Source: Arthrobacter sp. PM3 (GTDB lineage: Bacteria; Actinomycetota; Actinomycetes; Actinomycetales; Micrococcaceae). From it: DNA of 64,000 nucleotides. Within the stretch, counting starts at the first letter, position 1. Each line of letters starts with the position of its first letter. The DNA lies in contig NZ_CP022314.1 in the NCBI RefSeq assembly GCF_003352915.1, positions 924,360 through 988,359 on the forward strand, given 5' to 3'. The notes beneath the pieces are model-generated. The model was given only the letters and a program-made list of their open reading frames with translations. It was not told the DNA's origin and did not search any database. Shown here one piece after another: positions 16,987 through 43,816 of the stretch. The position numbers and the translations under genes were made by a program.

Positions 16987-17032
16987 GAATCCTCCAAGCA
17001 AAACACCCGTCGACTCCACGGGCTGGAATGTG

Positions 17033-17046: not shown

Positions 17047-17228
17047 ATATTTGCCGAAAAATGTCCCGGGCCCCGGTGGCGGTGCGAGGACTCCGGGACC
17101 CTCGCCCTGCCATGGGCACTGTCGGGGGCATCGGCCTCCGTGGGCACAAACTCGATGGCACGGCACCAAATCGGGGACGTGGTGTCGGCCGGGGTGCGCG
17201 ATACGCGCACCCCGGCCGGGCTCCCAAC

Positions 17229-18320
17229 CTAGGCTTTGTAGCCGGCCGGCGGCGTGAGCACGCCGCGCTCGATGAGTTTTTCGATGTTGGCGGCCCGTGT
17301 TGAGTCTTCCCGGGCGAGCCATCCCTCGCCCGGGGGGGCCTCGAGGTACTGGTTCTTCGGGTAGATCGGGTTGTCGTAGATGACCCGGTACTGCTCGGTG
17401 CGCAGGTCCTTGACCTGGTTGTACAGGCCGTTCGACACCCGGGCCCGGCGGAGGGCTTCGATGTCGATCGTGGTGCAGACGAACGAGTCGCCCGACGTCC
17501 AGCCCTGCTGCTTGGTCAGGATCTGGCCCCGGGGGCCGACAATCATGGACTGGCCGCCGAACAGGTCCTGCATGCTTCCGTCCTCGCGGACCTCGGGCCC
17601 CAGGTTCGGGGCGACGACGTACGCGGAGTTGAACATGGCGTGCGCACGGTTCTGCAGCTCCCACATGCCGTTCTGGACGGCCGGCTCGATCAGGGTGCCG
17701 CGGATAATGATCTCGGCGCCGTTCATGGCCAGGCCGCGCGGGACTTCGGGGTAGACACCTTCGTGGCAGATGGCGTACCCGATGTTGCCGATCTCCGTCT
17801 TCGCCACCGGGAAGATGGCGTCCATCGCGTTGCCGTTGCCCTTCTTTTCAATCCACTCGTCCCACACGTCGTGCGGGTTCATGTTGCCGAGCATGCCGCC
17901 CTCGTAGGCGTCACTGGTGGCCTTGCAGCGCTTGTAGATGATCTCGCCCTGCGGATCGATGATGAACGCGACATTGAAGTGGCGGTCCGGGAAGTCCTCG
18001 TCCTTGACCATGTACAGCTCGGCCGCGATATAGGTGTTCAGCTCCACGGCCTTCTTCGCCAGCTCGTCCGTCTCCGGACCCGGGATCGTCACGGCAAAGT
18101 GGCGCTCCTTCTCCCGGTTCCCCGGCGTGTTGGCAATCATGCCCTGGATCGCCATCTCCGGCAGGACAACCAGCCTGACCGGAGAGCCCTCCCAGGCCCC
18201 GACCATCACCGCCGTGTCGATGAACTCGTTGATGCGCTTGACGTTTGCAACACCGTCGCCGGGATTCTTCACATTGATAGTCCGCGGCGAAACCGCCACA
18301 ACGACAAATGGATCGACCAT
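17229..18320 (-). CDS. Nitrilase-family carbon-nitrogen hydrolase (formamidase/aliphatic-amidase-like)
   Basis: 363 residues. The Glu-Lys-Cys catalytic set of the nitrilase superfamily is visible: Glu55 in LVVLPEMAIQG, Lys130 or Lys133 in IIYKRCKAT, and Cys185 in GYAICHEGVYPE. It should hydrolyse an amide or nitrile to the acid and ammonia; length and the long insert around residues 140-170 are closer to formamidase/aliphatic amidase than to plain nitrilase. No signal peptide. It is a single gene with its own promoter region and a perfect 18-bp LacI-type operator 33 bp before the ATG, which ties it to the sugar genes around it; why an amidase should be sugar-controlled is unclear. Confidence 0.88.
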   Translation of the reverse strand: MVDPFVVVAVSPRTINVKNPGDGVANVKRINEFIDTAVMVGAWEGSPVRLVVLPEMAIQGMIANTPGNREKERHFAVTIPGPETDELAKKAVELNTYIAAELYMVKDEDFPDRHFNVAFIIDPQGEIIYKRCKATSDAYEGGMLGNMNPHDVWDEWIEKKGNGNAMDAIFPVAKTEIGNIGYAICHEGVYPEVPRGLAMNGAEIIIRGTLIEPAVQNGMWELQNRAHAMFNSAYVVAPNLGPEVREDGSMQDLFGGQSMIVGPRGQILTKQQGWTSGDSFVCTTIDIEALRRARVSNGLYNQVKDLRTEQYRVIYDNPIYPKNQYLEAPPGEGWLAREDSTRAANIEKLIERGVLTPPAGYKA

Positions 18321-25765: not shown

Positions 25766-25835
25766 AATTGTTCCTTATCTAGGACTTCGGGGCAGAGCGG
25801 GGCCGGCTGCAGATCGCTTGTCGAGCCGGCGGACG

Positions 25836-26930
25836 TTAGTCCTTGGCCCGGACGTAAGTGTCCGTGGGGACGTAGTACTTGGCCGCGTCGGCGGGCGTGA
25901 CTACCGTCGTGTCGATGTAGTTCGTCTTGCTTGGGCACTGCGACTGGTCGCCCTTTGCCGCGGCGATCGCCATGCGCACGGCTGCGGCTCCCTGATCCCA
26001 CGGCTGGTTGGACGCGTCAGCCTGGAGCGGGCCCTTCGGGTTGTCCACCATTTCCTTGATGGCTCCCATGCCGCCGTCATAGCTGGCCATGATAATCCCG
26101 TCGCCCCAGAGACCAGCCTGCTGCAGGCCTTGGACTATGCCACCGTGCATGACATCGCTCATGCTGTAGACGACCTTGAGGTCTGGATTGGCTGTGGCGA
26201 CGTCGCGGATAGGGGCCAGCGCCTTGTCCGGCTTCCACTCTCCGTACTTCGTGTCAAGCTTCACAGTGGTCACACCGGGGTGCTTTTCCATTACACGGTT
26301 CCAGCCGGCCATGAAGCCGTTGAAGCGAAGGTCGCTCAGCACGTCTCCCGGGAAGCCGCCGATGCCCACTATCTTGATTTGCCCGCTGTCGCCGTACTTC
26401 TCGAGCGCCTTCTTTGCGGCTACATCGCCGGCAAGCGCGCCGGTTTTCTCCTGGTCCTCCGCGACGTAGCAGAACATGTCCGGAACCAGAGACTTATCAA
26501 CGCTCGAGTTGACAGTCACAACCGGGATGCCCGCGTCCTTCAGCGCCTGAATCGAGGGGCCAACGCCCAACGGGTCATTCGGGTTCATGACGACGACGTC
26601 CACGCCCTTTGTGATTAGGGTCTGTACGTCCGCGTTTTGCCGCACAGTGTCACCGTTGGCGTCCAGCAGCTCGAGCCGCGCCCCGACCTTGCTGGCCTCG
26701 GCCTGGCCGCCCTCGACCAGGGTCTTCCACCAGTCACTGCCACTGATGCCGCGCTGGCTCCAGCCGATGACCAATCCCTTGCCTGTTGCTTTCTCCCCGC
26801 CGTCAGCAGCCGTTGCAGCACCGCTCTTGCACCCGGACAGCCCGAGTGCGGAGACCGTCAGGATCGAAGCGCACAGCGCGACAGTGGCGAGCCTTCGCCT
26901 CCGACGGACCACAGTTGTACTCCTCCGCAT
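25836..26930 (-). CDS. Sugar ABC transporter substrate-binding lipoprotein (RbsB-like)
   Basis: 364 residues: basic N-terminus, hydrophobic leader and lipobox LSGC (about residues 31-34), then a periplasmic-binding-protein-type domain with LVIGWSQRGISGSDWWKTLVEGGQAEA, VDVVVMNPNDPLGVGPSIQALKDAGIPVVTVNS and a distal hinge region. ATG 26930 is preferred because AAGGGAG lies 8 bp upstream; a GTG three codons earlier is possible. First gene of the seven-gene operon; promoter and operator lie 64-80 bp upstream. Confidence 0.92.
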   Translation of the reverse strand: MRRSTTVVRRRRRLATVALCASILTVSALGLSGCKSGAATAADGGEKATGKGLVIGWSQRGISGSDWWKTLVEGGQAEASKVGARLELLDANGDTVRQNADVQTLITKGVDVVVMNPNDPLGVGPSIQALKDAGIPVVTVNSSVDKSLVPDMFCYVAEDQEKTGALAGDVAAKKALEKYGDSGQIKIVGIGGFPGDVLSDLRFNGFMAGWNRVMEKHPGVTTVKLDTKYGEWKPDKALAPIRDVATANPDLKVVYSMSDVMHGGIVQGLQQAGLWGDGIIMASYDGGMGAIKEMVDNPKGPLQADASNQPWDQGAAAVRMAIAAAKGDQSQCPSKTNYIDTTVVTPADAAKYYVPTDTYVRAKD

Positions 26931-26993
26931 AAACAACACTCCCTTGTGTATTTGACCGCCCCGCCGTCGGGGCTATGTGAGTCAAGTTACACG

Positions 26994-29044: not shown

Positions 29045-30013
29045 CTAGGGTCCCGCCACGGCGGCAATGTCCAGCGGGGTAGTCCGGCAGCATCCCCCGA
29101 CGAGCCGGGCACCGAGGGAACGCCAGATCGGCGCCCCCTCGGCGAGGCTTGCCGGCGCTGGAGTGTCGCGGCCAGCCAGGCTGCCCGCGTCCCTGCCACC
29201 CGTCACGGCCGGCCCCCACGTTTTGGTGACTGCGTCATAGCTTTCGCCGGAATTTGGGTACGCGATCAGGGGTGTGTCGGTGGCTTTGCCCAGAGCCCGC
29301 AGGGACGGGGAGACCAGCCCCAGCGGCACACAGTTCACGCCTATCGCCACCACGAGCGGTTGCCCGCTGAAGAAGTTTGCCACCTCAGCCAGAGGCGTAC
29401 CGTCGCTGATGTGCCCGCCGTCCCGCAGCGTGAAGGAGAACCAGGATTCGACGTCGAACTCTTTCACGAGTGCCAGCAGCGCGTCGGCCTCCGGCAACGA
29501 CGGCAGGGTTTCACAAGCGAGGAAGTCCGCTCCGGCCTCCACCAGCGCCGCAATCCGGGGGCGGTGGAATTCCATGAAGTCGTCGCGGCTGAGAACGTAG
29601 TCGCCCCGGTATTCGGATCCGTCCGCGAGGTACGCCCCGTAGGGCCCGACCGATCCTCCAATGAGCAGGGGGCCGGCATCCGCATTTTCGGCCAGGTACT
29701 CGCGGCGTGCTTCGTCGGCCAGGCGCACGCTCAAGGCCACCAGCCCCAGGGCTTCTTCCTCGTCGATGCCGCGCCGGGCAAATCCCAGGGGTGTGGCCTG
29801 GTAGCTCGCCGTGATGGCGGCCGTAGCTCCGGCGCGGAAGTAATCGTGATGGACGCGCTTGATCAACTGCGGCTGTTCCAGCAGTACTTTTGCCGACCAC
29901 AGAGGGTCTTCCAGGTTGCAGCCGTGCGCCTCCAGCTCGGTGGCGAGGGCACCGTCCACTGTGAGGTTCGCTCCGGAATTGAGGAGGAGGGAGAGCTTTG
30001 CGTTAGTAGGCAT
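29045..30013 (-). CDS. mmuM: Homocysteine S-methyltransferase
   Basis: 322 residues of the MmuM/HMT family: transfers a methyl group from S-methylmethionine (or S-adenosylmethionine) to homocysteine, giving methionine. Motifs are VDGALATELEAHGCNL at the N-terminus, the zinc cysteine in IGVNCVP and the paired cysteines in VGGCCRTTP at the C-terminus. Start ATG 30013 is chosen for the GGAG 9 bp upstream; an ATG 42 bp earlier has no site. It stands alone, divergent from the next operon; it may be part of amino-acid use in this region. Confidence 0.92.
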   Translation of the reverse strand: MPTNAKLSLLLNSGANLTVDGALATELEAHGCNLEDPLWSAKVLLEQPQLIKRVHHDYFRAGATAAITASYQATPLGFARRGIDEEEALGLVALSVRLADEARREYLAENADAGPLLIGGSVGPYGAYLADGSEYRGDYVLSRDDFMEFHRPRIAALVEAGADFLACETLPSLPEADALLALVKEFDVESWFSFTLRDGGHISDGTPLAEVANFFSGQPLVVAIGVNCVPLGLVSPSLRALGKATDTPLIAYPNSGESYDAVTKTWGPAVTGGRDAGSLAGRDTPAPASLAEGAPIWRSLGARLVGGCCRTTPLDIAAVAGP

Positions 30014-30225: not shown

Positions 30226-30675
30226 TTGAAAATTGAAATGAAAGCAGTACGCAAACTGCGCGTGCATTGGCCCATAGCCTCGGAAACGCTCGCCCGGCTC
30301 AGCAAAGGAGACGCAGACGCACTAAAGGACGAGGCAGGCATCGCGGCGCTGCTCCAGGCCCTGTCGGAATCCCCGGATCTAGGAGATTTTGGCAACTACC
30401 GGCATGTCTTCGAATCCGGAGTCGGTTTCGAAGGGTTTACCTGCGCGGAGGGCGCAAACCCTACGCTGGGTCAGGTGGGCCAGCGGACCATTTCGCCAAC
30501 CTTCGTCTTCACGACGTATTTCGACGCGCTGCTCGATGAAGCCACAGTGGAACGCTTCCTCCAGCGCATCATCGACATCCACCCCTGGGAGGTGCCTGTC
30601 ATTGAACTGACCGGGCCAATCACCGTCTCCAGCACCGCACTTCCGGCATTCAGTGAGAGCGGGGCCGCGCGATGA
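30226..30675 (+). CDS. Hypothetical protein with HPWE motif, coupled to cyclase
   Basis: 149 residues, not recognised. No signal peptide or membrane segment. Visible features are an N-terminal basic strand (IEMKAVRKLRVHWPI), a middle glycine-rich part, and a C-terminal IIDIHPWEVPVIELTGP stretch. HPWE-xP recalls the HPYEEP loop of CutA/NIF3-type ferredoxin-like domains, which may mean a similar fold, but I cannot assign a function. Its stop overlaps the start of the cyclase gene (ATGA), so the two are surely one operon and likely act together. Confidence 0.75.
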   Translation: MKIEMKAVRKLRVHWPIASETLARLSKGDADALKDEAGIAALLQALSESPDLGDFGNYRHVFESGVGFEGFTCAEGANPTLGQVGQRTISPTFVFTTYFDALLDEATVERFLQRIIDIHPWEVPVIELTGPITVSSTALPAFSESGAAR

Positions 30676-31424
30676 TTGAAGCCGCCACGGCCGGACTTTG
30701 GAACGATCTGCAGCCGCTGCTGGCAGGCAGATCGTTCACCGATCTGACGCACGCCTTCCACCCCGGCCAGCCACATTTTCCGGCATTCCCCGACGAACAA
30801 AGAGAGGCCCTCTTCGACCTGGAGAACGGCGATGGATTCACCGCCCATCGCTATTCGATCGTGGGCCAGTGGGGAACGCACGTGGATCCGCCCTCGCACT
30901 TCATCCGCGGAGGACGCACGTTGGACCAGATTCCCGTGGAGGACATGGTCCTCCCGCTGGTCATCCTCGACATCACCTCGCGGGTCGCGGAAGACGCCGA
31001 TGCCACGCCCACCGTCGAGGACATCCATGCATGGGAGCGCCGCAATGGTGCCATCATGCCCGGGGCCTTTGTGGCATTGCGGACCGGCTGGAGCCGCCGC
31101 TGGCCCGACACCGGTGCCATGGCAAACCGGGATGAGGAGGGGATCAGCCATACGCCGGGATGGTCGCAGGAGGTCCTCTCCTTCCTGATTGAGGAGCGCT
31201 CGGTTACCGCCGTCGGCCATGAGCAGACGGATACGGATCCGGGGAGCGCCACATCCCGCCAGGACTTCACCTTGGAGACCTACGTCCTGGCGCAGAACCG
31301 GTGGCAGATCGAGCTGATGGCCAACCTGGACGGGCTTCCGGAAGCAGGCGCGATCCTCATTGCGAGCTGGCCGAAGCCGCTGCAAGGCAGCGGGTTTCCG
31401 GCCCGGGTCTTCGCCATCCACTAG
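30672..31424 (+). CDS. Cyclase-family metal-dependent hydrolase
   Basis: 250 residues of the PF04199 'cyclase' family (kynurenine formamidase and relatives). Signature HRYSIVGQWGTHVDPPSHFIRGGRTLDQIPVEDMVLP gives the HxGTHxDxPxHF-type metal motif (here QWGTHVDPPSHF), and SVTAVGHEQTDTDPGSA the distal ligand stretch. It could hydrolyse an N-formyl/N-acyl amide or a cyclic compound; the substrate is not evident. Coupled to the unknown 149-residue protein and followed after 32 bp by an IclR regulator. Confidence 0.87.
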   Translation: MIEAATAGLWNDLQPLLAGRSFTDLTHAFHPGQPHFPAFPDEQREALFDLENGDGFTAHRYSIVGQWGTHVDPPSHFIRGGRTLDQIPVEDMVLPLVILDITSRVAEDADATPTVEDIHAWERRNGAIMPGAFVALRTGWSRRWPDTGAMANRDEEGISHTPGWSQEVLSFLIEERSVTAVGHEQTDTDPGSATSRQDFTLETYVLAQNRWQIELMANLDGLPEAGAILIASWPKPLQGSGFPARVFAIH

Positions 31425-31456: not shown

Positions 31457-32245
31457 ATGTCTAAGACGTCCAGCATGGGCCGGGGAATCATGGCGGTCCT
31501 GGCAGTCGGCGCCCGCAGTACCGGAGGGCTGCCTGGCGGAACAGTTGCTGACATAGCTGCTGATCTTGGCCGGGACCGCAGCCAGGTGTCGCGCAGCCTC
31601 CGGACCGCCGAGCAAGAGGGATTCCTGGCACGCGGCGGGCAGAGGTCGTACACCCTGGACTGGTCGCTCCTGACCGATGCCCAGCTGTTGACAGAACAGC
31701 GTCTCCAGACGGACGGCGCGACTGCCCTGGAACGCCTGGCCGGAGAGACCGACGAAGGATGCTTCCTTGGCGTTCTGCGGGGTGACAGTACGGTCACCAT
31801 CGGCGAGCGCGTTCCGGCAAGCAGCAACATGGTCGGCTCCTGGCTGGGCCGGCCCTACCCGGCTTTCTGCAGTGACGCCGGCCAGGCGTTGCTGTGGGAG
31901 GCGTCCGACGCTGAGGTCCGGAACATCTTCTCCGGCGTCCCGTTCGTCCGGCACGGCCCTAATACACCGCTTGACGTCGAGGACTTCCTGTCACGACTGC
32001 ACGGGGCGCGGGCCCGGGGATACTCCGTTGTCGATGAGGAAGCCGAACCGGGGCTGTATTCCCTGGCCGTTCCGATTCGGGACTTCAAGGGCGACGTGGT
32101 GGCAGCCTTGCAGGTGGTGGGCACCAAGACACGCCTGGAGCCGCGGCACGAACTCTGCGCCACGGCCTTGGTTTCCTGGGGGGAGTGGCTTGAGTCCAGG
32201 CTCGGGCATGCCGTGCAGAAGAACCCGACGGCGGGTCAGGTGTGA
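31457..32245 (+). CDS. IclR-family transcriptional regulator
   Basis: 262 residues. N-terminal winged helix (TVADIAADLGRDRSQVSRSLRTAEQEGFLARGG) and C-terminal IclR effector domain (GSWLGRPYPAFCSDAGQALLWEASD..ARARGYSVVDEEAEPGLYSLAVPIRD). ATG 31457 fits family length. Same strand as the cyclase operon and probably its regulator. It is clearly related to, and points tail-to-tail at, the next IclR gene (16 bp apart). Confidence 0.88.
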   Translation: MSKTSSMGRGIMAVLAVGARSTGGLPGGTVADIAADLGRDRSQVSRSLRTAEQEGFLARGGQRSYTLDWSLLTDAQLLTEQRLQTDGATALERLAGETDEGCFLGVLRGDSTVTIGERVPASSNMVGSWLGRPYPAFCSDAGQALLWEASDAEVRNIFSGVPFVRHGPNTPLDVEDFLSRLHGARARGYSVVDEEAEPGLYSLAVPIRDFKGDVVAALQVVGTKTRLEPRHELCATALVSWGEWLESRLGHAVQKNPTAGQV

Positions 32246-32261
32246 CACCCGGAACGATGCA

Positions 32262-33062
32262 TTAGCTGGCAAGGTCCTTCCGGCCGGCGTCGGTCCGCGT
32301 GCGGCCGTCCACCGATCCCAGCCGCGCCGCTGCTGACGTAAGAGCCGCCGCAATGTCATCGGCCCTGGAGATGATCTCGGCCCGGCCGCCCAGGACGCTG
32401 AGCGAGGCAAGGATGGAGCCGGCGGCGCCGCGTACCGGAACTGCCAGTTCGTAGACTCCGTGCTCGAATTCCTCTTCCGCGACAATGTAGCCCCGCACCC
32501 TGTCGCGCTCCATCAGGTCGGCAACCTCCTGGGTCGAATGGGCCGCCCCCGGACCGCCGACGCCGATGAAGTTCACGTCGCCGAGGAGGGTTTGGAGGGC
32601 CGGCTCCGGTTCGTCCCACAGCAGGGCCCGGCCGGCCCCGGTGCACCACACGGGCGTCACCATGCCGGGTTTGACGAAGCTTCCGGGGACCGCGTCGTTG
32701 CTGGAGGCGCGCAGGAGAATGACGCGGAAGCCCTCGCGGGCACAAACCCTGGCTCTCAGTCCGAAAGAAGCCACCAGAGCCTCAAGTTCAGTTCTCGATT
32801 CACGGACCCATCCGGCATTCAGCGCCGCGGCCAGGCCGAAAAAACGCGGGCCGGTTCGGAACGGGCCACGTTCGACCCGTTCCAGCAGTCCCAGCTCGCA
32901 CAACTCCTGCGTCAGCCGGGAGACACGGCTCTGTTCCATGTCCAGCTCGGATGCCAGCTGGGAAACCCCGAGAAGCCGCCTGCCCCTCTTCTCCCGGTCC
33001 GCGACCAGCCGAACTATGCGAAGCCCCTGGGCCACGGATGACGCTTCCGCGGATGCATCCAC
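32262..33062 (-). CDS. IclR-family transcriptional regulator (second)
   Basis: 266 residues from a GTG with GGAAGGAG 8 bp upstream; the longer open frame overlaps the racemase gene and has no support. HTH stretch LLGVSQLASELDMEQSRVSRLTQELCELGLLERV; effector domain with TPVWCTGAGRALLWDEPEPALQTLLGDVNFIGV and RGYIVAEEEFEHGVYELAVPVRG. Third gene of the permease-racemase operon, so it likely controls that operon and perhaps the divergent homoserine-type genes. Confidence 0.88.
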   Translation of the reverse strand: MDASAEASSVAQGLRIVRLVADREKRGRRLLGVSQLASELDMEQSRVSRLTQELCELGLLERVERGPFRTGPRFFGLAAALNAGWVRESRTELEALVASFGLRARVCAREGFRVILLRASSNDAVPGSFVKPGMVTPVWCTGAGRALLWDEPEPALQTLLGDVNFIGVGGPGAAHSTQEVADLMERDRVRGYIVAEEEFEHGVYELAVPVRGAAGSILASLSVLGGRAEIISRADDIAAALTSAAARLGSVDGRTRTDAGRKDLAS

Positions 33063-33099: not shown

Positions 33100-34263
33100 T
33101 CACATGTGCTCGTCGTTGACCCGGATGCGGTTTCCTTGCGCCCACACAGTGTAGAGGTCCGCGAGTATCGCTGAATTAGCTGCCTCCAGCTCCGCGGGAG
33201 CGATTTCGGCGTCCCCTTGCCGCCCGAACAGCACGACTTCGTCTCCCGGCGCAACGTCCGGCAGGTCGGTGACGTCGACAACCATCGAATTCATGGACAC
33301 GACGTCGACTATGGGCGCGCGTTGTCCGCGGACAAGCACGCTTCCCTGCTTGGCCAGTGCCCGCCGGTAGCCGTCGCCGTAGCCTGCTGTCACGGACGCC
33401 AGTCGGGATTCGCGGCCGAGAGTGTGGGTCAGCCCGTAGCCGACCTTCGTCCCGGCGGCATAGCGATTGATGGAAGCGATCCGGGCCTTGAAAGCCAGGC
33501 ACCGCTGGAACTGCGGCGTGGTCAGCCCCGAATCGCCGTAAAGCGCTGCCCCGGCCCGGACCATGTCCAGCCACGAGTGGCCCACATGCAGCGCGGCATA
33601 GGAATTGGCGCAGTGCAGCAGCACCTCCTGCCGGGGAGTTCCGGTCAGCTGAAGCAACCTCAGCGCCTGGCTCTGAAAACGTGAAAGAGCCGCTTCGATA
33701 TGGCTGGTGTCGTCCGTGGGAAAGTGCGTCATGATGCCGGCCAGCTGAAGCCCCGGGTGGTTCACAATCGCCGCCGCCGTTGCCCGCCCCGGCGCGGAGG
33801 AGACGTCGAGGCTGTGCCTGCTGATGCCGGAGGAGTTGATGTCGAGGTGGATGCGCACCGTCTTCCCCGCGCCGGCAGCGATCCTGTGCATCTGCCATGC
33901 GCTCTGCGGGTCGGCTACAAGTTCTTCGATGTCATAGCACATGCCGGCCGCGACTTCCTGCGGCGCGGCCGCCCGCACACGCAGGATCCGGCCCGTATGA
34001 CCGCAGCGGCGTGCGATAGCCGCCTCCTCGTTACTGCCTACCCCGATGAACGGAACGCCCAGGCGAACGAGGGACGGCAGCAGAAGATCCGCCCCATGGC
34101 CGTAGGCATGGGATTTGATCACTGCACACAGCAGCGCCCGGTGATCGAGCATGGACAGGAAATTCCGGACGTTTGACTCGAAAGCGGCAGCGTCAATCTC
34201 CAGCCAGTTCCCGGCGTTCCGGCCCGCACTGCGCAGTTGTTGCATCAAGTCTGGTGAGTTCAT
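33100..34263 (-). CDS. Alanine-racemase-type PLP enzyme
   Basis: 387 residues, fold III PLP racemase. PLP lysine Lys50 in AVIKSHAYGHG and catalytic tyrosine Tyr276 in GTKVGYGLTHT are both present, as are HLDINSSGISRH and VSMNSMVVDV. Alanine racemase is essential for cell wall, but this copy lies in a catabolic operon behind a permease and before an IclR regulator, so a broad or dedicated amino-acid racemase used to bring D-amino acids into a degradation route is as likely as a housekeeping enzyme. I leave the symbol open. Confidence 0.85.
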   Translation of the reverse strand: MNSPDLMQQLRSAGRNAGNWLEIDAAAFESNVRNFLSMLDHRALLCAVIKSHAYGHGADLLLPSLVRLGVPFIGVGSNEEAAIARRCGHTGRILRVRAAAPQEVAAGMCYDIEELVADPQSAWQMHRIAAGAGKTVRIHLDINSSGISRHSLDVSSAPGRATAAAIVNHPGLQLAGIMTHFPTDDTSHIEAALSRFQSQALRLLQLTGTPRQEVLLHCANSYAALHVGHSWLDMVRAGAALYGDSGLTTPQFQRCLAFKARIASINRYAAGTKVGYGLTHTLGRESRLASVTAGYGDGYRRALAKQGSVLVRGQRAPIVDVVSMNSMVVDVTDLPDVAPGDEVVLFGRQGDAEIAPAELEAANSAILADLYTVWAQGNRIRVNDEHM

Positions 34264-34341
34264 GGCCTCTCCATAGGACAGCTTCGCGGCGGGGAAGGAT
34301 GCCCCGCCGCGAAGCTGAGTAGACGATGGCTGATGACGGCG

Positions 34342-35781
34342 TCAGGACGCCTGGTTCGCCCGCGCCGGGCGACCGTACTTGAAATGGAAGAAGGCGTAGC
34401 AGGCGCCAACAAAAGCGACGCCGAAATAGAGGGCCGCCACCTGGTTCGGGTCAAAGGCAATACCGATGAGCGAAATGAGACACAGCGAGAAGGCCAGGAT
34501 CGGCACCAGCGGGAACAGCGGCGCCTTGTAGGGAAGGGCAGAGACATCGCCGCCGTTCCTGACGAAGGACCGCCGGTGGAAGAAGTGCGAGGCAGTGATG
34601 GACATCCAGACCCCGACGACGGCAAACCCCGCCACCGACACGAGAGCCAGGTAGACGGTTTCGGGTGCAACGACACTGCTGATGAGCGACGCCAGGCCGC
34701 CGAGCATGCTGACGGAGAGGGCGATCATGGGGATCCCGCGGCGGGTCAGCTTCTTCAGCACCAGGGGGGCGTGCCCTTCGTCAGCAAGGGAGTAGAGCAT
34801 CCGGGCGCAGGAGAAGAGTCCGCTGTTTCCGGCGGAGAGCAGCGCGGTGATGATGACGAAGTTCATGATGTCGGCGGCAAACGGAATGCCGATGGACGAG
34901 AAGACCGTCACGAACGGACTTTCATCCAGCCCGACCTGCTCGAACGGGATGGTGGCAGCGATGACGGCGATGGCGCCGACGAAGAAGATCAGCAGGCGGA
35001 TGACTGTGCTGCGCATGGCCTTGGGGATGCTGGTGGCGGGGTCGGCAGTCTCGCCTGCTGCCACGCCAATGAGTTCGGAGCCGGAGAAGGCGTAGAACAC
35101 CGCAAGTGCTGTGATGAGGACGCCGGTGAGGCCGTTGGGGAAAAGGCCGCCGGAGGTGTTGAAGTTCTCAAACAGGCTGGGGTGGTTGGCACCGGCACTG
35201 AGTGGGTGGAAGCCGAACAGCGCAGCGCCGCCGAAAACGATGAGGACCACGATTGCGCCGACCTTGACGATGGCAAACCAGAACTCGGATTCACCGAAGA
35301 ACTTCGAGGAAACTGCGTTGAAGCCGAAGAGCACCGAGGCGAAGATGACGCACCAGACCCAGACGTCGACACCGGGGAACCAGCGCTGCATCAGCAGACC
35401 CGAGGCCGTGAACTCCGATCCGATGGCCACGGCCCAGCAGAGCCAGTAGAGCCAGGCCGTGACAAAGCCGGTGGCCGGGCCGATCGACCTCGCAGCGTAG
35501 ATATGGAACGCGCCGGAGACCGGATAGGCGATGGCAAGTTCGCCGAGGCAGGCCATCACCAGGTACACAACAAAGGCACCGATGAGATAGGCGATGACCG
35601 CCCCGAGCGGGCCGGCCTGGGAAATGGTGTAACCGGAGCTAAGGAACAGCCCGGACCCGATCACCCCGCCCATGGCGATCATGATCAGGTGTCGCGCCCC
35701 CATGGACCGCCGGAGTCCGGAATCGGTCGACGGCGGCATCGTGGGCTGTGGTTCAAGCTGAACAGGTGCTGAGGGTTCCAT
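34342..35781 (-). CDS. Amino acid permease (APC superfamily, AAT type)
   Basis: 479 residues with about twelve hydrophobic segments. The N-terminal MGARHLIMIAMGGVIGSGLFLSSGYTISQAGPLGAV is the AAT-family hallmark; also SGAFHIYAARSIGPATGFVTAWLYWLCW and FYAFSGSELIGVAAGETADPATSIPKA. ATG 35781 has GGGAGA 4 bp upstream; earlier starts lack support. Imports an amino acid by proton symport. Context with homoserine dehydrogenase and aspartase suggests homoserine, aspartate-family or a D-amino acid. Confidence 0.92.
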   Translation of the reverse strand: MEPSAPVQLEPQPTMPPSTDSGLRRSMGARHLIMIAMGGVIGSGLFLSSGYTISQAGPLGAVIAYLIGAFVVYLVMACLGELAIAYPVSGAFHIYAARSIGPATGFVTAWLYWLCWAVAIGSEFTASGLLMQRWFPGVDVWVWCVIFASVLFGFNAVSSKFFGESEFWFAIVKVGAIVVLIVFGGAALFGFHPLSAGANHPSLFENFNTSGGLFPNGLTGVLITALAVFYAFSGSELIGVAAGETADPATSIPKAMRSTVIRLLIFFVGAIAVIAATIPFEQVGLDESPFVTVFSSIGIPFAADIMNFVIITALLSAGNSGLFSCARMLYSLADEGHAPLVLKKLTRRGIPMIALSVSMLGGLASLISSVVAPETVYLALVSVAGFAVVGVWMSITASHFFHRRSFVRNGGDVSALPYKAPLFPLVPILAFSLCLISLIGIAFDPNQVAALYFGVAFVGACYAFFHFKYGRPARANQAS

Positions 35782-36081
35782 GGTTTCTCCCAGGTGAGTG
35801 GACAGGTCTGATGCGAAAGGCGCGCACATCGCCCCGCGTCCGGGACGGGCCGCCACCAGCGGTGCGGTGGCGATAGTGATGAAAGTAACACAAAACAGAG
35901 ATTTTGGTCATTAAAAACATTTCATCATGCCTATGTTGCACGTAAGTTACTTCGAAGTGCCGATGGCGAATCGGCAGTCAGATGGTCACTTCGCCCTGTT
36001 TTAAGGTCACAATCACATGCACCGACGGACATGGAATGCGGCGAGCATTGGAGGACAGACGTAACCCACTGAAGGAGCACC
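35782..36081. promoter_or_regulatory. Divergent promoter region with operator-like palindromes
   Basis: 300 bp, locally A+T-rich around 35880-35950, separating the permease operon from the homoserine dehydrogenase operon; no gene is seen in it. It contains overlapping GTAAGTTAC (35942-35950) and ACTTCGAAGT (35949-35958), followed directly by TGCCGAT-N5-ATCGGCA (35958-35976). These are good candidates for binding the IclR or Lrp regulators of the locus. A GAAGGAG site serves the plus-strand start. Confidence 0.6.
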
Positions 36082-37134
36082 ATGACCACCTACGACATTG
36101 CGCTGATCGGCTTCGGCGGCGTCAACCGGACACTGGCCGAACTCATTGCAGCCCGCGGCGAGACGCTTCGTTCCGAGCTGGGCTTCGGCCTGCGGGTCGT
36201 GGCCATCACCGACCTCCGACTCGGCTCACTGGTCCAGCCCGAAGGCATCGACCTCTCCGTCGCCCTCAAACTCGGCGGCGGCAGCGAAACGTTCGCCGCG
36301 CACGGCGGCTCCGCGGACACCAACAATGAGTCAGTCATCCGCAACTGCACCGCCGACATCATCTGCGAGGCCACTTTCACGAATCCCGACGACGGCGAGC
36401 CGGCGGTTTCGCACGTGCGGTGGGCCCTCGAATCCGGCAAGAGCGTCTGCACGACGAACAAGGGCCCGGTTGCCCTTCGCGGTACGGAGCTGACCGCCCT
36501 GGCCGAACGGAACGGCGTGTATTTCGAATTCGAGGGTGCCGTCATGAGCGGCACTCCCGTCATCCGCCTGGCCAAGAAGATGTTCGCAGGGCTGAAGCTG
36601 AATGGTTTCGAAGGCATCCTCAACGGCACCAGCAACTATGTGCTCGGGCGGATGGAAGCCGGACTGGACTTCGCAGCAGCAGTCAGTGAGGCACAGGAAC
36701 TCGGTTACGCCGAGGCCAACCCCGCAGCAGATATCGAGGGGTACGACGTTCAGCTCAAGGTTCTCATCCTCGCCAACGAACTGCTCAACGCAGGCATGGA
36801 ACTCAAGGATGTTCAGCGCCAAGGGATTTCGAGCGTGACGCCGGAAAATATCCGGAAGGCAGCCCTCGAGGGACGCCGCTGGAAGCTCGTCGGCGCGGCA
36901 CGGCGGAACCCGGACGGCTCCGTGACGGCAGGTGTCTCCCCCATGGCGCTTCCCCTCGACCACGGGCTGGCCGGGGTTTCCGGCGCGGCCAACGCCGTGT
37001 CCTTCGAGACCGACCTCCTGGGGGCAGTGACGGTTTCGGGACCGGGAGCAGGCCGCGTGGAGACCGCCTACGCGCTGCTCTCTGACATCATCGCCATGCA
37101 CGCAGCCAGGACGGGAGCAGCTGCAAATGTCTGA
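36082..37134 (+). CDS. Homoserine dehydrogenase, probably catabolic
   Basis: 350 residues. NAD(P)-binding N-terminus [16 protein letters not shown], the substrate domain signature [20 protein letters not shown] and [29 protein letters not shown] with the catalytic Asp/Lys pair. No C-terminal ACT domain, unlike biosynthetic actinobacterial enzymes, so no threonine feedback is expected. It oxidises homoserine to aspartate 4-semialdehyde or the reverse; being first in an operon with aldehyde dehydrogenase and aspartase, the oxidative, catabolic direction is favoured (inference). Overlaps the next gene by 8 bp. Confidence 0.88.
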
Positions 37135-38539
37135 AACCACGCTGTGTTCGACAGAAACCGGGCTGCCGCAGTTCCGCGACGTGACGAGCCCGTTCGACGG
37201 CAGAGTGGTCGGCGCGGTTGCGCTGACCGATGCCGCGGGCGGCGCGGCCGTGATCGAAACGGCCCGCATCGGTGCCCGCAAGGCACGGGCGCTGTCCCGC
37301 AACGCCCGCGGAAAGATCCTGGATGGTGCCGCCGCGGCGATCGAGCAGCGCAACGAGGAATTCGCGCAGACCATCGTGTCCGAATCAGGGAAAACGATCC
37401 GCCAGGCACGTAAGGAGGTCCTGCGCGCGGTCAACACGCTGCGCCTCTCCGCCGCCGAAGCCCGCCGGAACGCCGGCGACGTCATTGCCTTTGACTCGTA
37501 CGAGGGCTCGGAGGACCGCACCGGCTGGTACTCGCGCGAGCCCTTGGGCATCATTGCCGCGATCACTCCTTTCAACGACCCCCTCAACCTGGTGGCGCAC
37601 AAGATCGGGCCGGCAATCGCCGGAGGAAACGCCGTGATCCTCAAACCCTCCGCGTTGACTCCCTTGTCAGCCCAGCTGCTCACGGACGCCCTCCTGGGCG
37701 CCGGGCTCCCGCCGGAAGCCCTCACGATTGTCCATGGTGACCGGGAAGTGGCCGAAACGATCATCAGATCCCGGGACGTGCGCATGGTGTCCTTTACCGG
37801 GGGGTTCTCCACGGGTGAGAGTATCGCCCGCACCGCAGGCCTGAAAAAACTGTCCATGGATCTTGGCGGAAACGCGCCCGTCATTGTCCTGGAGGACGCC
37901 GACATCGGCAACGCAGTGGATTCCTGCGTCTCCGGAGCGTTTTGGGCCGCCGGCCAGAATTGTGTGGGCGTACAGCGGGTCCTCGTGGCCGCGCCGGTGT
38001 ACAGCGAGTTCCGCCGTCGCTTTCTTGCGGCAACGGCACGGCTGGTCGCAGGAGATCCGTCCGATGAGCGGACAGACGTCGGGCCCATGATCAGCCCCGC
38101 TGCGTTGCAGGAGCTCCAGTCCAAGCTGGACACGGCCGTGGATGCCGGCGCCCTGGTCCTCGCAGGCAATGTCACGGACGGCAATGTGCTCCGCCCCACC
38201 GTCCTTGAAGCGGTCCCGGCGGACAGCCGGCTGTGGAAGGAGGAGGTTTTCGGACCAGTCGTCATGCTCCGTAAGTTCGACACCTTTGACGAGGCCGTCG
38301 AGGTCGCCAACGAGATCGAGTTCAGTCTTCATGCCGGCATCTTCACCGATTCCCTGGCCAAGGCCATGGACGCAGCGCACCGGCTCGAAGCAGGGGGCGT
38401 CATGATCAACGATTCCTCTGACTACCGGTTCGACGGCATGCCGTTCGGCGGAGCCAAATACGGAAGCATGGGCCGGGAGGGCGTCCACTTCGCCTATGAG
38501 GAAATGACCCAGCCCAAGGTCGTCTGCATTAGGAACTGA
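37127..38539 (+). CDS. Aldehyde dehydrogenase, candidate aspartate-semialdehyde oxidising
   Basis: 470 residues of the NAD(P)-dependent ALDH superfamily, closest in pattern to lactaldehyde/glycolaldehyde/semialdehyde dehydrogenases. Catalytic Cys279 lies in [15 protein letters not shown]-binding [22 protein letters not shown] and FTGGFSTGE. The general base, normally Glu 34 residues before the Cys, is Asp245 (SMDLGGNAP). Operon position between homoserine dehydrogenase and aspartase suggests that it oxidises aspartate 4-semialdehyde to aspartate without phosphate. The 8-bp overlap with the preceding gene indicates coupling. Confidence 0.88.
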
Positions 38540-38651
38540 CCGGTCCGGAGGGGCGCGGGCCTCGCGCCTCTCCGGATCCGGGCCGGCACCGAACAGGGCC
38601 CCCACCGCGCCGATGTGCACCCACCCAACCAGACAAAGGATGAAAAAGACC

Positions 38652-40061
38652 ATGACCACCCGCATCGAGACGGATTCGCTCGGCTGCATTCCCGTGCCGG
38701 CCGCAGCCTATTGGGGTGCACACACCGCCCGGGCCCTGGAAAACTTCACCATCAGCGGCATTCCGGTCTCCCGCCACCCGCACCTGGTGCGCGCCCTGGC
38801 GATGATCAAGGATGCCGCTGCGCGGGCCAACTGCGAACTGGGCATCCTGGACCCCCGGGACGCGACGGCGATCCGCGAAGCGTGCCGGGACATCCAGAAT
38901 GGACAGCACCATGACCAGTTCTGCGTCGACGTCATCCAGGGCGGCGCCGGCACGAGCACGAACATGAACGCCAACGAAGTGATCGCGAACCTGGCACTGG
39001 AAAAACTGGGCCACCGCCGCGGGGAATACCAGCACCTGCACCCCATCGATCACGTCAACCGGTGCCAGTCCACCAATGACACCTATCCGACAGCGATCAA
39101 GCTGGCCCTGATTTTCGCAACCGAAGAACTCCACCGTGAACTGGGCAACCTCGCCGCATCAGCCCGCACCAAGGGCGCCGAATTCGCCGGGATTGTGAAA
39201 ATGGGACGGACACAGCTCCAGGATGCAGTCCCGATGACACTTGGGCAGGAGTTCAATGCCTTCGCCGCGACTCTGGAAGAAGACCGTGCCCGGCTCATGG
39301 AATCCACCATGCTGATGCGCGAGTGCAGCCTGGGCGCTACCGCCATCGGGACCGGTATCACCGCCGAAGCCGGCTATCAGCAACTCGTGATTCGAGCGCT
39401 TTCGGAGATTTCCGGCGTCGCGCTCCTGCCCGCCCCGGATCTCATCGAAGCAACGTCCGACGTGGGCGTTTTCATGCACATCTCGGCCATGCTGAAGCGC
39501 ACGGCCATAAAGCTCTCCAAATTCAGCAGCGACCTCCGGCTGCTCTCGAGCGGTCCGCAGAACGGATTCGGGGAGATTGTCCTGCCCCCGCGCCAGGCAG
39601 GCTCGTCAATCATGCCGGGAAAGGTCAACCCTGTGATCCCGGAGGCGGTGAATCAGATTGCCTTCGCTGTCGCCGGAGCTGACACCACGGTGACGATGGC
39701 CGCGGACAACGGCCAGCTCCAGCTCAATGCTTTCGAACCTGTCATCGCCCATGTCCTTCTCCAGAGCATTTCGTGGCTCGAACACGGGGCCCGCATCCTT
39801 CGCCAGTACTGCCTGGAAGGCATTGAAGCGAACACCGGCCATCTCGCCCGCCAAACGGCAGCCTCGGTGGGCCTTGCCACGGCGCTGATACCCGCTATCG
39901 GGTATGGCGCCGCGTCAGCGGTGGCACGGGAAGCCCTTCAGGACGGATCGACCATTCTCGACGTCGTTACCGGCAGGAAGCTTTTGGACCGGGACGAGGC
40001 CCGGTCACTGCTCGAATCCGCCGTTGCACCCGCCGGCACGGCAGGGGTGTCCGGAGCCTGA
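38652..40061 (+). CDS. aspA: Aspartate ammonia-lyase
   Basis: 469 residues, fumarase/aspartase superfamily. The catalytic loop is GSSIMPGKVNPVIPEAVNQIAF; other family stretches are DVIQGGAGTSTNMNANEVIANLAL and HVNRCQSTNDTYPTAIKL. It splits L-aspartate to fumarate and ammonia. ATG 38652 is favoured over the in-frame ATG 38640, whose ribosome site would overlap it. 112 bp after the aldehyde dehydrogenase; the product fumarate enters the TCA cycle, closing the proposed homoserine route. Ends 5 bp from the convergent Lrp gene. Confidence 0.94.
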   Translation: MTTRIETDSLGCIPVPAAAYWGAHTARALENFTISGIPVSRHPHLVRALAMIKDAAARANCELGILDPRDATAIREACRDIQNGQHHDQFCVDVIQGGAGTSTNMNANEVIANLALEKLGHRRGEYQHLHPIDHVNRCQSTNDTYPTAIKLALIFATEELHRELGNLAASARTKGAEFAGIVKMGRTQLQDAVPMTLGQEFNAFAATLEEDRARLMESTMLMRECSLGATAIGTGITAEAGYQQLVIRALSEISGVALLPAPDLIEATSDVGVFMHISAMLKRTAIKLSKFSSDLRLLSSGPQNGFGEIVLPPRQAGSSIMPGKVNPVIPEAVNQIAFAVAGADTTVTMAADNGQLQLNAFEPVIAHVLLQSISWLEHGARILRQYCLEGIEANTGHLARQTAASVGLATALIPAIGYGAASAVAREALQDGSTILDVVTGRKLLDRDEARSLLESAVAPAGTAGVSGA

Positions 40062-40066
40062 CCCAC

Positions 40067-40525
40067 TCACTCACTGACCCGGGCGCCTCCGGCGCCCCGC
40101 TTGATGAAACTGGAAAGCGTCATGGCCGTCACGGTGTCCGCTACGCCGGGAATGGCGGCGATCTGTTCCCAAATCTCCTGCACCCGTTCCAGCGACCGGG
40201 CCTCCACCCTCACCAGCAGGTCGAAATCACCGCTGACAACATCACATAGAACCACTTCCGGGATCGACTGCAGGACGGCGATGACATCCGATCCCCGCAC
40301 CCGGTCCTTCCGGTAGACCATCAGGAATGCCGATACCAGGCCCTGGCCCGGCGGTCCGGAAACAATCGTGTACCCCTGGATATAACCCTGCCGTTCCATC
40401 CGTTCTATCCGCTGGCGCACGGCATTTCTTGAAAGGAGGACCTTCGTCGCCAGCTCCGCATGGCTCATGCGGGCGTTTTTCGTGAGCTCCGCAAGAATCC
40501 TCTGGTCTATCTGATCAAGATTCAC
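40067..40525 (-). CDS. Lrp/AsnC-family transcriptional regulator
   Basis: 152 residues. N-terminal HTH LDQIDQRILAELTKNARMSHAELATKVLLSRNAVRQRIERMERQGYIQGY and C-terminal RAM ligand domain (VVLCDVVSGDFDLLVRVEA). Start is GTG at 40525. It faces aspA tail-to-tail and is divergent from the HAD gene; such proteins commonly sense the amino acid whose degradation they control, so it is a candidate regulator of the adjoining operon. Confidence 0.92.
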   Translation of the reverse strand: MNLDQIDQRILAELTKNARMSHAELATKVLLSRNAVRQRIERMERQGYIQGYTIVSGPPGQGLVSAFLMVYRKDRVRGSDVIAVLQSIPEVVLCDVVSGDFDLLVRVEARSLERVQEIWEQIAAIPGVADTVTAMTLSSFIKRGAGGARVSE

Positions 40526-40608: not shown

Positions 40609-41310
40609 ATGACACTTCCGCACCAGACCTGGCCCCCTGCCACCGGTATCACCTGCGTCCTGTTCGACATGGACGGAACGCTGCTGGATTCAGCACCCGG
40701 CGTTACGGCAAGTGCAGCCCATGCCCTGGAAACCGTAGGAGCGCCGGTTCCCGCGATGGACAAACTGCGCCGTTTCGTGGGGCCGCCGATGATCCAGTCT
40801 TTCAGAACAGTGTCACAGCTGGACGAAAAGACCGCCCAAAGGGCCCTCCAACATTACCGCAAAGCCTACGCGGATCATGGCGCTGAGCTGTCCATCCCAT
40901 ATGACGGCATCCTGCACCTCTTGCAACACCTCCGTTCGGCCGGCATCCCTCTGGGGGTAGCCACGTCCAAGGTGGAAGACCAGGCAATCAGGCTCGCACG
41001 ACGGTTTGGAATTGAAGGCCACTTCGTCAACGTGTGCGGGGCATCGGACAGTGAGGGAAGAGCGAGCAAGTCAGATGTCATCGCCGAACTGCTGCTGCGC
41101 CTCCAGTCCCGCGGCGTGGACATCACCAGTCCCGCGATGGTCGGAGACAGAAGCTTCGATGTGGAGGGAGCAGCCGAACACGGCATCCCCACCATATTCG
41201 CGCTCTGGGGGTACGGCGATGCCGGGGAAGCATCTCAGGCCGCCGCAGTCGCCGCTTCCCCGACCGCCCTGCTGCCGCTGATCCTGAACAACAGCCGCCG
41301 CTCAGCGTAG
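40609..41310 (+). CDS. HAD-family phosphatase (phosphoglycolate-phosphatase-like)
   Basis: 233 residues. HAD motif I is LFDMDGTLLDSAPG with Asp20 and Asp22, motif II GVATSKVED, motif IV MVGDRSFDVEGAAEHG. The helical cap (C1 type) fits Gph/beta-phosphoglucomutase-like enzymes. Substrate unknown; with no operon partner on its strand except the distant transporter, it may be an independent small-phosphate phosphatase. Only a weak ribosome site is seen. Confidence 0.88.
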   Translation: MTLPHQTWPPATGITCVLFDMDGTLLDSAPGVTASAAHALETVGAPVPAMDKLRRFVGPPMIQSFRTVSQLDEKTAQRALQHYRKAYADHGAELSIPYDGILHLLQHLRSAGIPLGVATSKVEDQAIRLARRFGIEGHFVNVCGASDSEGRASKSDVIAELLLRLQSRGVDITSPAMVGDRSFDVEGAAEHGIPTIFALWGYGDAGEASQAAAVAASPTALLPLILNNSRRSA

Positions 41311-41493: not shown

Positions 41494-42810
41494 ATGACCA
41501 TGCACGAAGACGCACCGCTGCCGGGTTCGCGCCAAGGCGGGTGGGACCGACGGACTCTGCTGAAGACCTTCGGCGCCGGAGCGGTCGCCATGGCTGGAAT
41601 ACCCTGGCTCACGGCGTGCACGGGCGGCAGCGCACCCGCCAGCAGCGGCGCCAACACGGCCACCTTCGGCTCCGGTTCCTCGGACGAGGTCCCCAAGGCC
41701 GCCTATAAGGCCGTAACGGACGCTTTTGAGAAGAAGTCCGGCATCAAGGTCACCACCAATGTGGTGGCGCACAACGACTTCCAGAATAAGATCAACACCT
41801 ACCTCCAGGGCAGCCCGGACGATTCGTTCACCTGGTTCGCTGGCTACCGCATGCAGTACTACGCCGGCAAGGGACTGCTCGCCCCGATCGATGACGTCTG
41901 GGAAAAGATCGGCGGAAACTTCTCGGACGCCCTGAAGAAGGCCTCGACGGGCGCCGACGGCAAAATGTACCTGGTCCCGAACTACAACTACCCCTGGGGC
42001 TTCTTCTACCGGAAGAGCCTGTGGGCGGAAAAGGGCTACCAGGTCCCCACCACCTTCGATGAGCTGAAGACCCTCGCCACCAAGATGAAGGCCGACGGCC
42101 TGATCCCGATTGAGTTCGCGGACAAGGACGGCTGGCCCGCCATGGGCACCTTCGACTACCTGAACATGCGCCTGAACGGCTACCAGTTCCACATGGACCT
42201 CACCGCCCACAAGGAAAGCTGGGACCAGAAGAAGGTCAGCGATGTCTTTGACACCTGGAAGGCGCTGCTGCCGTTCCAGAACCCGAACGCCCTCGGCATG
42301 ACCTGGCAGGACGCGGCAAAGAACCTGGCCGACAAGAAGTCCGGCATGTACCTGCTCGGATCCTTCCTCACCCAGCAGTACACGGACAAGGCCATCGCCG
42401 ACGACATCGATTTCTTCCCGTTCCCCGAAATCGCGGTGGAGGGCCGGGACTCCATCGAGGCGCCCATCGACGGCCTCCTGCTGTCCAAGAAGGGCGGCCA
42501 GAACCAGGCCGCCAGGGACTTCGTGGCCTACGTCGGCACCCCGGAGGGCCAGGATGTGTACGCCTCGGTGGACTCCTCCAACATCGCCACGGCCAAGGGC
42601 GCCGACACCTCGAAGTTCACCCCGCTCAACAAGAAACTCGCTGAAGCCATCGGCAGCGCCAAGAACATCAGCCAGTTCTTTGACCGCGATGCCCTGCCCG
42701 CCATGGCGAACAATGTCATGATCCCCGCCCTGCAGACTTTCATCAAAGACGGCACGGTCGATGTGAAAAACCTGGAAGCCCAGGCCAAGTCCCTGTACGC
42801 CGCCCAGTAG
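41494..42810 (+). CDS. Extracellular sugar-binding lipoprotein (family 1), galactoside transporter
   Basis: 438 residues. N-terminal twin-arginine-like signal WDRRTLLKTFGAGAVAMAGIPWLTAC with the lipobox cysteine, so it is probably Tat-exported and lipid-anchored. Mature part is the maltose-binding-protein type (NVVAHNDFQNKINTYLQGSPDDSFTWFAGYRMQYYAGKGLL). Captures oligosaccharides for the two permeases that follow; no ATPase is encoded here, so a shared MsiK-type ATPase elsewhere is likely. GGAG before the ATG. Confidence 0.92.
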   Translation: MTMHEDAPLPGSRQGGWDRRTLLKTFGAGAVAMAGIPWLTACTGGSAPASSGANTATFGSGSSDEVPKAAYKAVTDAFEKKSGIKVTTNVVAHNDFQNKINTYLQGSPDDSFTWFAGYRMQYYAGKGLLAPIDDVWEKIGGNFSDALKKASTGADGKMYLVPNYNYPWGFFYRKSLWAEKGYQVPTTFDELKTLATKMKADGLIPIEFADKDGWPAMGTFDYLNMRLNGYQFHMDLTAHKESWDQKKVSDVFDTWKALLPFQNPNALGMTWQDAAKNLADKKSGMYLLGSFLTQQYTDKAIADDIDFFPFPEIAVEGRDSIEAPIDGLLLSKKGGQNQAARDFVAYVGTPEGQDVYASVDSSNIATAKGADTSKFTPLNKKLAEAIGSAKNISQFFDRDALPAMANNVMIPALQTFIKDGTVDVKNLEAQAKSLYAAQ

Positions 42811-42865
42811 CGGCCCGCCCATCCCGCAGCAATACCCGCAGCATTTCCCACAGCAAGGAATCTCC

Positions 42866-43816
42866 ATGAGTGTCTCTACCAATCCGTCGGCGCGGGGGCG
42901 CCAAACAGCTGCCGCCCCCGCGCGGCGGGTTCGGCGGCTGTCCCGCAGCGACAAACTGGTGCTCGGCCTGATGGTGGGCATCCCCACGCTGATCCAGCTC
43001 GTCCTGGTCTGGATCCCCACCCTCATGTCGGTCGGACTGTCCTTCACCCGCTGGAACGGGCTGGAGCTGACCGACATCAAACCCGCCGGCGTCGAGAACT
43101 ATCAGTTCATCGCCCAGGACTACCCGCCGTTCTGGCCCGCCATGCAGCACAACGTGCTGTGGCTGGCGTTCCTGGCGCTGGTCGCTACTCCGCTGGGGCT
43201 GCTGCTGGCAGTGCTCCTGGACAAGAACATCCGCGGCACCAGGATCTACCAGAGCATCTTCTTTGCCCCGGTGATGCTGTCGCTGGCCTTGATCGGCATC
43301 ATCTGGCAGCTGTTCTACAACCGGGACAGCGGCCTCCTGAACTTCCTCCTCGGCACCGCCGGCACGCCGCAGGCCGTCGACTGGTTCGGAGATTCCAGCG
43401 TCAACATCTGGGCGGCCCTGTTCGCCGCAACCTGGCGGCACGCCGGCTACGTCATGATCCTGTACTTGGCCGGGCTCAAGGGCGTGGACCCCACCCTGCG
43501 CGAGGCGGCCCAGATTGACGGCGCCAACGAGGTCCAGACCTTCTTCCGGGTCATCCTCCCGGCCATGCGGCCGGTCAACGTCATCGTCATCGTCATCACC
43601 GTCATCGAATCGCTCCGCGCATTCGACATCGTCTACGTCATCAACCGCGGCACCAACGGCCTGGAACTCATCAGCGCCCTGGTCATCCAGAACCTGGTGG
43701 GCGAGGGACAGGTGATCGGCATCGGCTCGGCACTGGCCGTCATCCTGCTGGTCATCTCGCTGATCCCCATCACCTTCTACCTGTCCCGCGCGTTCGGAAA
43801 GGACAAAGAGGCATGA
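42866..43816 (+). CDS. Sugar ABC transporter permease (MalF-type)
   Basis: 316 residues, six predicted helices after a basic N-terminus. The inner-membrane ATPase-contact motif EAAQIDGANEVQTFFRVILPAMRPV is clear. Works with the downstream MalG-type permease, whose start overlaps its stop (ATGA). AAGGA site before the ATG. Confidence 0.94.
   Translation: MSVSTNPSARGRQTAAAPARRVRRLSRSDKLVLGLMVGIPTLIQLVLVWIPTLMSVGLSFTRWNGLELTDIKPAGVENYQFIAQDYPPFWPAMQHNVLWLAFLALVATPLGLLLAVLLDKNIRGTRIYQSIFFAPVMLSLALIGIIWQLFYNRDSGLLNFLLGTAGTPQAVDWFGDSSVNIWAALFAATWRHAGYVMILYLAGLKGVDPTLREAAQIDGANEVQTFFRVILPAMRPVNVIVIVITVIESLRAFDIVYVINRGTNGLELISALVIQNLVGEGQVIGIGSALAVILLVISLIPITFYLSRAFGKDKEA

Follow-up and report, generated by a model that had tools for sequence, protein, structure and literature searches.

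The homoserine genes of rhizobia and mmuPM of Escherichia coli are among the described systems closest to a gene cluster that we analysed in a 64,000-nucleotide window of Arthrobacter sp. PM3 (contig NZ_CP022314.1, positions 924,360 to 988,359 of the forward strand). S-methylmethionine (SMM) is a common plant compound, and in E. coli MmuM uses it. The homoserine genes of Rhizobium leguminosarum are reportedly dealt with in Vanderlinde 2014. In this species pRL80071, which encodes a homoserine dehydrogenase (HSD), is stated to be specifically up-regulated in the pea rhizosphere (PMC3333776). A passage of PMC10228743, citing Liang 2022, presents an HSD of Arthrobacter nicotinovorans as a novel family working strongly one-way towards aspartate semialdehyde. 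It places R. leguminosarum RLV_0467 in the same family and notes a homoserine gene cluster there. The HSD type and the rhizobial homoserine genes are thus already in print.

In the window, two gene arms diverge from one control region. The genome is 4.35 Mb in one contig, and by its matches it belongs to Arthrobacter in the wide sense. A sequence-only reading had assigned both arms, at positions 33100-40061 of the window, to a single route from homoserine to fumarate. The five genes it listed (racemase, permease, HSD, aldehyde dehydrogenase (ALDH) and aspartase) are present with their reading frames intact, and its observation is confirmed whilst its interpretation is only partly supported. 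The right arm resembles known homoserine catabolism; the left arm had probably been given the wrong role, and what is new and open to testing is its proposed link to SMM. Homoserine catabolism, known from rhizobia, gains here a conserved actinobacterial counterpart with a proposed tie to SMM.

The homoserine dehydrogenase arm

The window HSD has a Homoserine_dh match, and its NAD-binding match falls marginally under the cut-off (23.9 vs 24). The protein has 350 aa and stops after the Homoserine_dh domain, confirming the predicted lack of an ACT domain. Among named relatives, the HSD of Arthrobacter sp. ES3-54 is closest (93%). A tree of 36 proteins, from which L003 was omitted, separated 32 HSDs of the window's kind from four others with support of 100/100 and set the group apart from biosynthetic HSD. 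In every one of the 32, the second strand ends in Asp, a residue absent there from two Arthrobacter copies of the biosynthetic type and shared by one distant HSD (L073). Since Asp at this place in a Rossmann fold points to NAD+, it suggests that the enzyme favours NAD+ and hence the oxidising direction.

P. nicotinovorans SSBW5 encodes one HSD of the window's kind, 80% identical to the window HSD, and a further biosynthetic-looking HSD at 39%. Because SSBW5 has a single HSD of this type, the published A. nicotinovorans enzyme is probably an orthologue of the window HSD, a link made through the SSBW5 locus. The likeness lies in the ACT-less type and, judged by SSBW5, the 80% identity, and one-way oxidation by the window HSD is predicted from this kinship. 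A difference is that the cited passage covers the enzyme and not the gene cluster analysed here.

The window genome encodes two further HSDs, one at 40% and a weak one at 27%. Five of six other genomes tested likewise have a second HSD; the sixth, a 1.9-Mb Propionibacteriaceae metagenome-assembled genome (MAG), has one. In this MAG the group HSD (L069, 9001-10008) stands without the neighbouring genes or an ALDH. Being the sole HSD and lacking the module neighbours, it may serve biosynthesis there. A phylum search at E 1e-100 matched only two genomes out of 396, that of the window and another from the same genus, indicating that the HSD type is rare in this sample. It is also rare among Streptomyces (8 of 246 genomes).

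The HSD and ALDH genes overlap by eight bases, and ALDH adjoins HSD in the loci of the new type that were examined, except L069, which has none, and the rhizobial L082, where only a piece lies beside HSD. Cys279 and the NDSSDYR loop of ALDH are invariant in 30 sequences, whilst no NCBIfam ALDH cut-off was reached among the best 25 of 45 matches. The window protein reads MDLGGNAP and the proteins of the type B loci described below read MELGGNAP. From the operon partners only, we infer aspartate semialdehyde as the substrate, which would make the protein a non-phosphorylating aspartate-semialdehyde dehydrogenase. Its proposed reaction would be that of DoeC, the aspartate-semialdehyde dehydrogenase of ectoine breakdown, an enzyme named in a passage of PMC10228743 and likened here by description only; no ectoine genes were noticed in the window locus.

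Aspartase residues S331, S332, M334, P335, K337 and N339 are invariant in 21 sequences and fit GSSxMPxKxN, which we take to be the aspartase signature. The narrower TIGR00839 aspA equivalog cut-off was not reached (573 vs 681). Elsewhere the window genome has a second aspartase-like gene (58%), a third that is fumarase-like (43%) and a second alanine racemase (31%). With these extra copies of HSD, aspartase-like and racemase genes in the genome, the right arm is best read as a dedicated catabolic set.

We compared 46 HSD loci, counting 35 as Arthrobacter-type (type A) and setting 11 apart (three Streptomyces, two rhizobia, one Propionibacteriaceae MAG and five distant HSDs at 35-37%). The three-gene order of the right arm recurs in part: HSD and ALDH are kept together widely, but AspA is present in only 16 of the 35 named type A loci. 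Twelve further loci (type B) from 10 genus genomes carry an HSD 64-69% identical to that of the window, with ALDH in all 12 and AspA and Lrp in nine each; no left-arm gene above 50% identity was found in them. The right-arm HSD-ALDH-AspA set is thus supported as a real conserved block. Beside HSD-ALDH, short or broken aspartase matches occur in L080 (18691-19491), L066 (11712-11891) and L167 (6861-7557), remnants known by similarity only. It is as if the aspartase had repeatedly been lost from the cluster.

In the proposed route, HSD would oxidise homoserine, a plant amino acid, to aspartate semialdehyde and ALDH would oxidise the latter to aspartate. Aspartase would then give fumarate and ammonia, its place being taken where it is missing by another aspartate-using enzyme. 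Gene order, co-conservation, the extra genome copies and the literature all favour this route, which the sequence-only reading had put forward, and a homoserine catabolic route is well supported. We are confident that HSD and ALDH act in sequence as a homoserine drain, and such a drain is very likely part of the locus.

The permease arm and its companions

The region between the arms is 300 bp long and carries blocks conserved among relatives. GTGAYGAARRTAACA and GTCATYAAA each occur in 23 of 24 aligned control regions (the window and 23 loci). Thirty short genus loci, among them the window's own (the best 30 of 59 matches), all show the divergent permease/HSD arrangement with ALDH behind HSD, a recurrence far beyond chance. 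This common control region would suit a model in which all genes serve free homoserine, the permease importing it and the racemase admitting D-homoserine. The link of the HSD type with homoserine use in rhizobia also fits this model, as does an Lrp 80-81% like that of the window beside the permease in three of nine loci whose HSD lies elsewhere. We nevertheless consider the model unlikely. The permease is 55% like MmuP, and 17 genomes pair it with MmuM while lacking both HSD and hydrolase; the racemase is in just 14 of 35 loci, and the hydrolase and a small open reading frame (sORF) are left unexplained.

In all 17 of these genus genomes, MmuM lies 0.1-7.6 kb from the permease. Fifteen of the 17 loci were examined (not G107 and G119), giving the order permease-IclR2-IclR1-MmuM in 14 and a permease directly before MmuM in one (L181), where the missing IclRs are not explained by a contig edge. 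Since the permease is MmuP-like and is found with MmuM in relatives lacking both HSD and hydrolase, it is more likely an SMM than a homoserine permease, and its inclusion in the homoserine route was probably a misreading. Homoserine permease as a settled function was set aside, the permease accompanying MmuM where HSD is absent. No other gene of the locus lies near the paralogous permeases at 76-79% (five loci, L185-L189).

The window has its own MmuM, outside the span of the sequence-only reading. It thus resembles E. coli mmuPM in having a permease and a methyltransferase as neighbours at 55% and 56% identity. It differs in the IclRs, hydrolase, sORF and racemase in between and in the added homoserine drain. 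The MmuM reading frame can be extended upstream by 43 codons to 30142, with similarity to E. coli MmuM beginning at residue 44. Several matches of relatives that reach upstream of 30013 contain a stop codon, making 30013 the likelier start.

In 150 genus genomes we found HSD in 55, the hydrolase in 67, the permease in 94 (83 at at least 82%) and MmuM in 87, using E-values of 1e-60, 1e-50, 1e-150 and 1e-60, respectively. The genes are nested. The hydrolase was present in 55 of 55 HSD genomes and in 12 of 95 genomes without HSD (Fisher p 1e-29), although the genomes are related and the counts not independent events, so the p-value overstates independence and this support for our reading is weakened. 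The permease at 82% or above was present in 66 of 67 hydrolase genomes, the exception being G131 (contamination 7, broken pieces); G092 was counted with a partial permease. In the hydrolase-only genomes, 11 of 12 of which were examined (not G092), sORF and hydrolase adjoin MmuM on the IclR1 side in ten. In nine genomes with type B HSD, the hydrolase unit lies away from HSD (in G041 by about 35 kb on the same contig), and the racemase occurs in five of these nine hydrolase loci. With its genes also occurring apart from HSD, the left arm is read as a unit in its own right, whose fullest version is the fused locus. Paenarthrobacter aurescens TC1 (L063) and Arthrobacter globiformis NBRC 12137 (L042) are further strains with the fused locus.

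The racemase is an optional part of the locus. Six PDB chains scored 305-358 bits against it and the next group 135. Two of the six, 4dyj (357) and 7agz (310), are named broad specificity, 4dza is a lysine racemase and three are named alanine racemase. The protein passes the general alr model (188 vs 168) and stays below the NCBIfam PRK13340 cut-off (375 vs 434). By these similarities, it appears nearer to the broad-specificity racemases of known structure than to alanine racemases of the ordinary kind.

Candidate sources of homoserine

The permease, two IclRs, MmuM, hydrolase and CutA-like sORF protein could form an SMM module. SMM would be imported and part of it combined with homocysteine by MmuM to give methionine. 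The rest would yield homoserine and dimethyl sulfide, possibly via homoserine lactone opened by the hydrolase, and this homoserine would be consumed by the right arm. We judge it an even call that an SMM-uptake unit was in this way joined by a step yielding homoserine and a drain consuming it. With MmuP and MmuM present, SMM is weighed highest as the source, followed by homoserine lactone and acyl-homoserines; SMM and the lactone may be one source, the lactone being formed from SMM. The step from SMM to homoserine is a candidate in Arthrobacter. A passage of PMC13209565 describes an enzymatic reaction of animal organs in which SMM is split into dimethyl sulfide and homoserine. A literature search, covering mostly titles and abstract openings and few subscription journals, recognised no combined locus or bacterial SMM-to-homoserine route, a weak absence.

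The hydrolase has as nearest solved structures a cyclase family protein (134 bits) and isatin hydrolases (96-121 bits; PDB). It shares their Pfam family, PF04199, and can be aligned across the metal-site region. The difference is a Gln at a conserved His. Some of its kin open a five-membered cyclic amide. It is thus a candidate homoserine-yielding or lactone-opening enzyme. The sORF product has no Pfam match, and the PDB entries most similar to its structure model (pLDDT 67, moderate) were a NIF3-related protein (E 1e-4) and CutA1 (E 1e-3). The predicted fold resembles CutA1/NIF3.

The chemistry of the hydrolase kin, together with the presence of the hydrolase in 55 of 55 HSD genomes, would also fit a feed of homoserine lactone or N-acylhomoserine from quorum signals, the hydrolase opening the lactone or removing the acyl group ahead of the right arm. 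Soil Arthrobacter strains outside the present comparison are stated to use homoserine lactone and an acyl-homoserine (PMC5474475 citing Flagan 2003 and Yang 2006). This model leaves MmuP and MmuM unexplained and has to accommodate the Gln at the conserved His of the hydrolase; we judge it improbable. Canavanine was considered as a third source, its gamma-lyase yielding homoserine and hydroxyguanidine (PMC10018355), as reported for Pseudomonas canavaninivorans. A Pfam scan of 12 window proteins showed no gamma-lyase-like gene, and this source, which we think very improbable, was rejected.

Several observations weigh against the SMM reading and the drain it feeds. No known SMM-cleaving enzyme was found in the locus. 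The permease falls below the NCBIfam PRK11387 (MmuP) cut-off (616 bits vs 716), a MmuM match is missing from 12 of the 83 permease genomes, and 16 genomes have MmuM without a permease of the window's type. MmuM was lacking in the Streptomyces and Paenarthrobacter loci examined and in all nine hydrolase loci of genomes with a type B (~65%) HSD. In the hydrolase, Gln66 replaces the first His of the HxxxHxD metal motif in 17 of 17 sequences compared, and kin of the enzyme open isatin. In ALDH, Asp occupies the putative general-base position, presumably Glu as a rule, in 23 of 28 readable sequences, with Glu in five, all of them type B.

A fuller form of the SMM reading makes the locus a complete breakdown pathway, with import by the permease, formation of dimethyl sulfide and homoserine (or its lactone) by the hydrolase and CutA-like protein, and onward conversion to fumarate. 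We regard this form as doubtful. If true, it would reveal a source of dimethyl sulfide in soil whose genes had not been described, and would give a function to the hydrolase subfamily and the CutA-like family. Short of that, the locus offers candidate genes for a release of dimethyl sulfide that may take place in soil and for the Arthrobacter use of homoserine lactone and acyl-homoserine mentioned in PMC5474475, and the two uncharacterised families gain a narrow, testable context.

Forms outside Arthrobacter and layout of the locus

Seven of 12 Streptomyces loci carry IclR2, HSD, ALDH, AspA, Lrp, hydrolase, HAD and permease in an order different from that of the window, with AspA only as remnants in L066 and L167. 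Six of the seven have sORF and five IclR1, L079 being cut short and L162 lacking IclR1 despite room for it. The other five loci have HSD-ALDH-(AspA)-Lrp alone, one of them (L164) with an added HAD match. HSDs of both Streptomyces kinds form a single group distinct from Arthrobacter in the tree. The two modules were thus either joined long ago and then rearranged, or joined twice. Since both histories argue for joint use, the products of the modules are probably used together. In the Streptomyces plasmid locus L079, a group II intron reverse transcriptase and an IS110 transposase (14725-17838) split the unit between AspA and Lrp.

Rhizobial plasmid loci (L067, L072, L080 and L081) have HSD-ALDH with an Lrp gene. 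They resemble the window in having HSD followed by ALDH with Lrp near, and in L072 and L081 also AspA; the AspA match is partial in L080 and there is none in L067. By contrast, the rhizobial cluster has ABC transporters and an APH-fold phosphotransferase, where the window has a MmuP-like APC permease, IclRs, the hydrolase and the CutA-like protein. An amino acid ABC transporter, characteristic of the rhizobial cluster, is replaced in the window by the APC permease. The APH-fold protein (L080, 19559-20365; L081, 19535-20251), which carries a homoserine kinase or phosphotransferase annotation, was not seen in the Arthrobacter form.

The IclR regulator that the sequence-only reading had included in the left arm (IclR2) is real but lies just outside positions 33100-40061. 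Further left are another IclR, the hydrolase and the small conserved protein. Coordinates are collected in Table 1.

Table 1. Features of the locus, with window coordinates and number of type A loci (of 35) carrying each gene. Counts for outer genes are lower bounds, since contig edges cut some loci (e.g. L038, L051, L142).
Feature	Position	Strand	Basis	Type A loci
MmuM-type homocysteine S-methyltransferase	29045..30013	-	NF007020/PRK09485, 382 bits vs 215; 56% identical to E. coli MmuM	22
Small protein (sORF), CutA1/NIF3-like predicted fold	30226..30675	+	Predicted structure	32
Cyclase-family metal hydrolase, isatin-hydrolase-like	30672..31424	+	PF04199, 137.8 bits	32
IclR regulator 1	31457..32245	+	PF01614	32
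IclR regulator 2	32262..33062	-	PF01614, PF09339	35
Racemase, probably broad-specificity kind, optional part	33100..34263	-	PDB similarity	14
MmuP-like amino acid permease	34342..35781	-	55% identity with E. coli MmuP (SMM permease) across 459 aa	35
Shared divergent control region, conserved blocks	35782..36081		Alignment of 24 regions	
HSD without ACT domain, putative catabolic type	36082..37134	+	NF004912, 450 vs cut-off 373	35
ALDH, proposed aspartate semialdehyde to aspartate	37127..38539	+	PF00171	35
Aspartate ammonia-lyase (AspA)	38613..40061	+	NF008909/PRK12273, 671 bits vs 510	16
Lrp/AsnC regulator, goes with the homoserine module	40067..40525	-	PF13412, PF01037; also 9/12 type B loci, Streptomyces, rhizobia	34
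HAD-type phosphatase-like protein	40609..41310	+	PF13419; also 7/7 extended Streptomyces loci	29

Sugar-type ABC transporter genes lie on both flanks of the locus, at 24188-26939 and 41494-43816.

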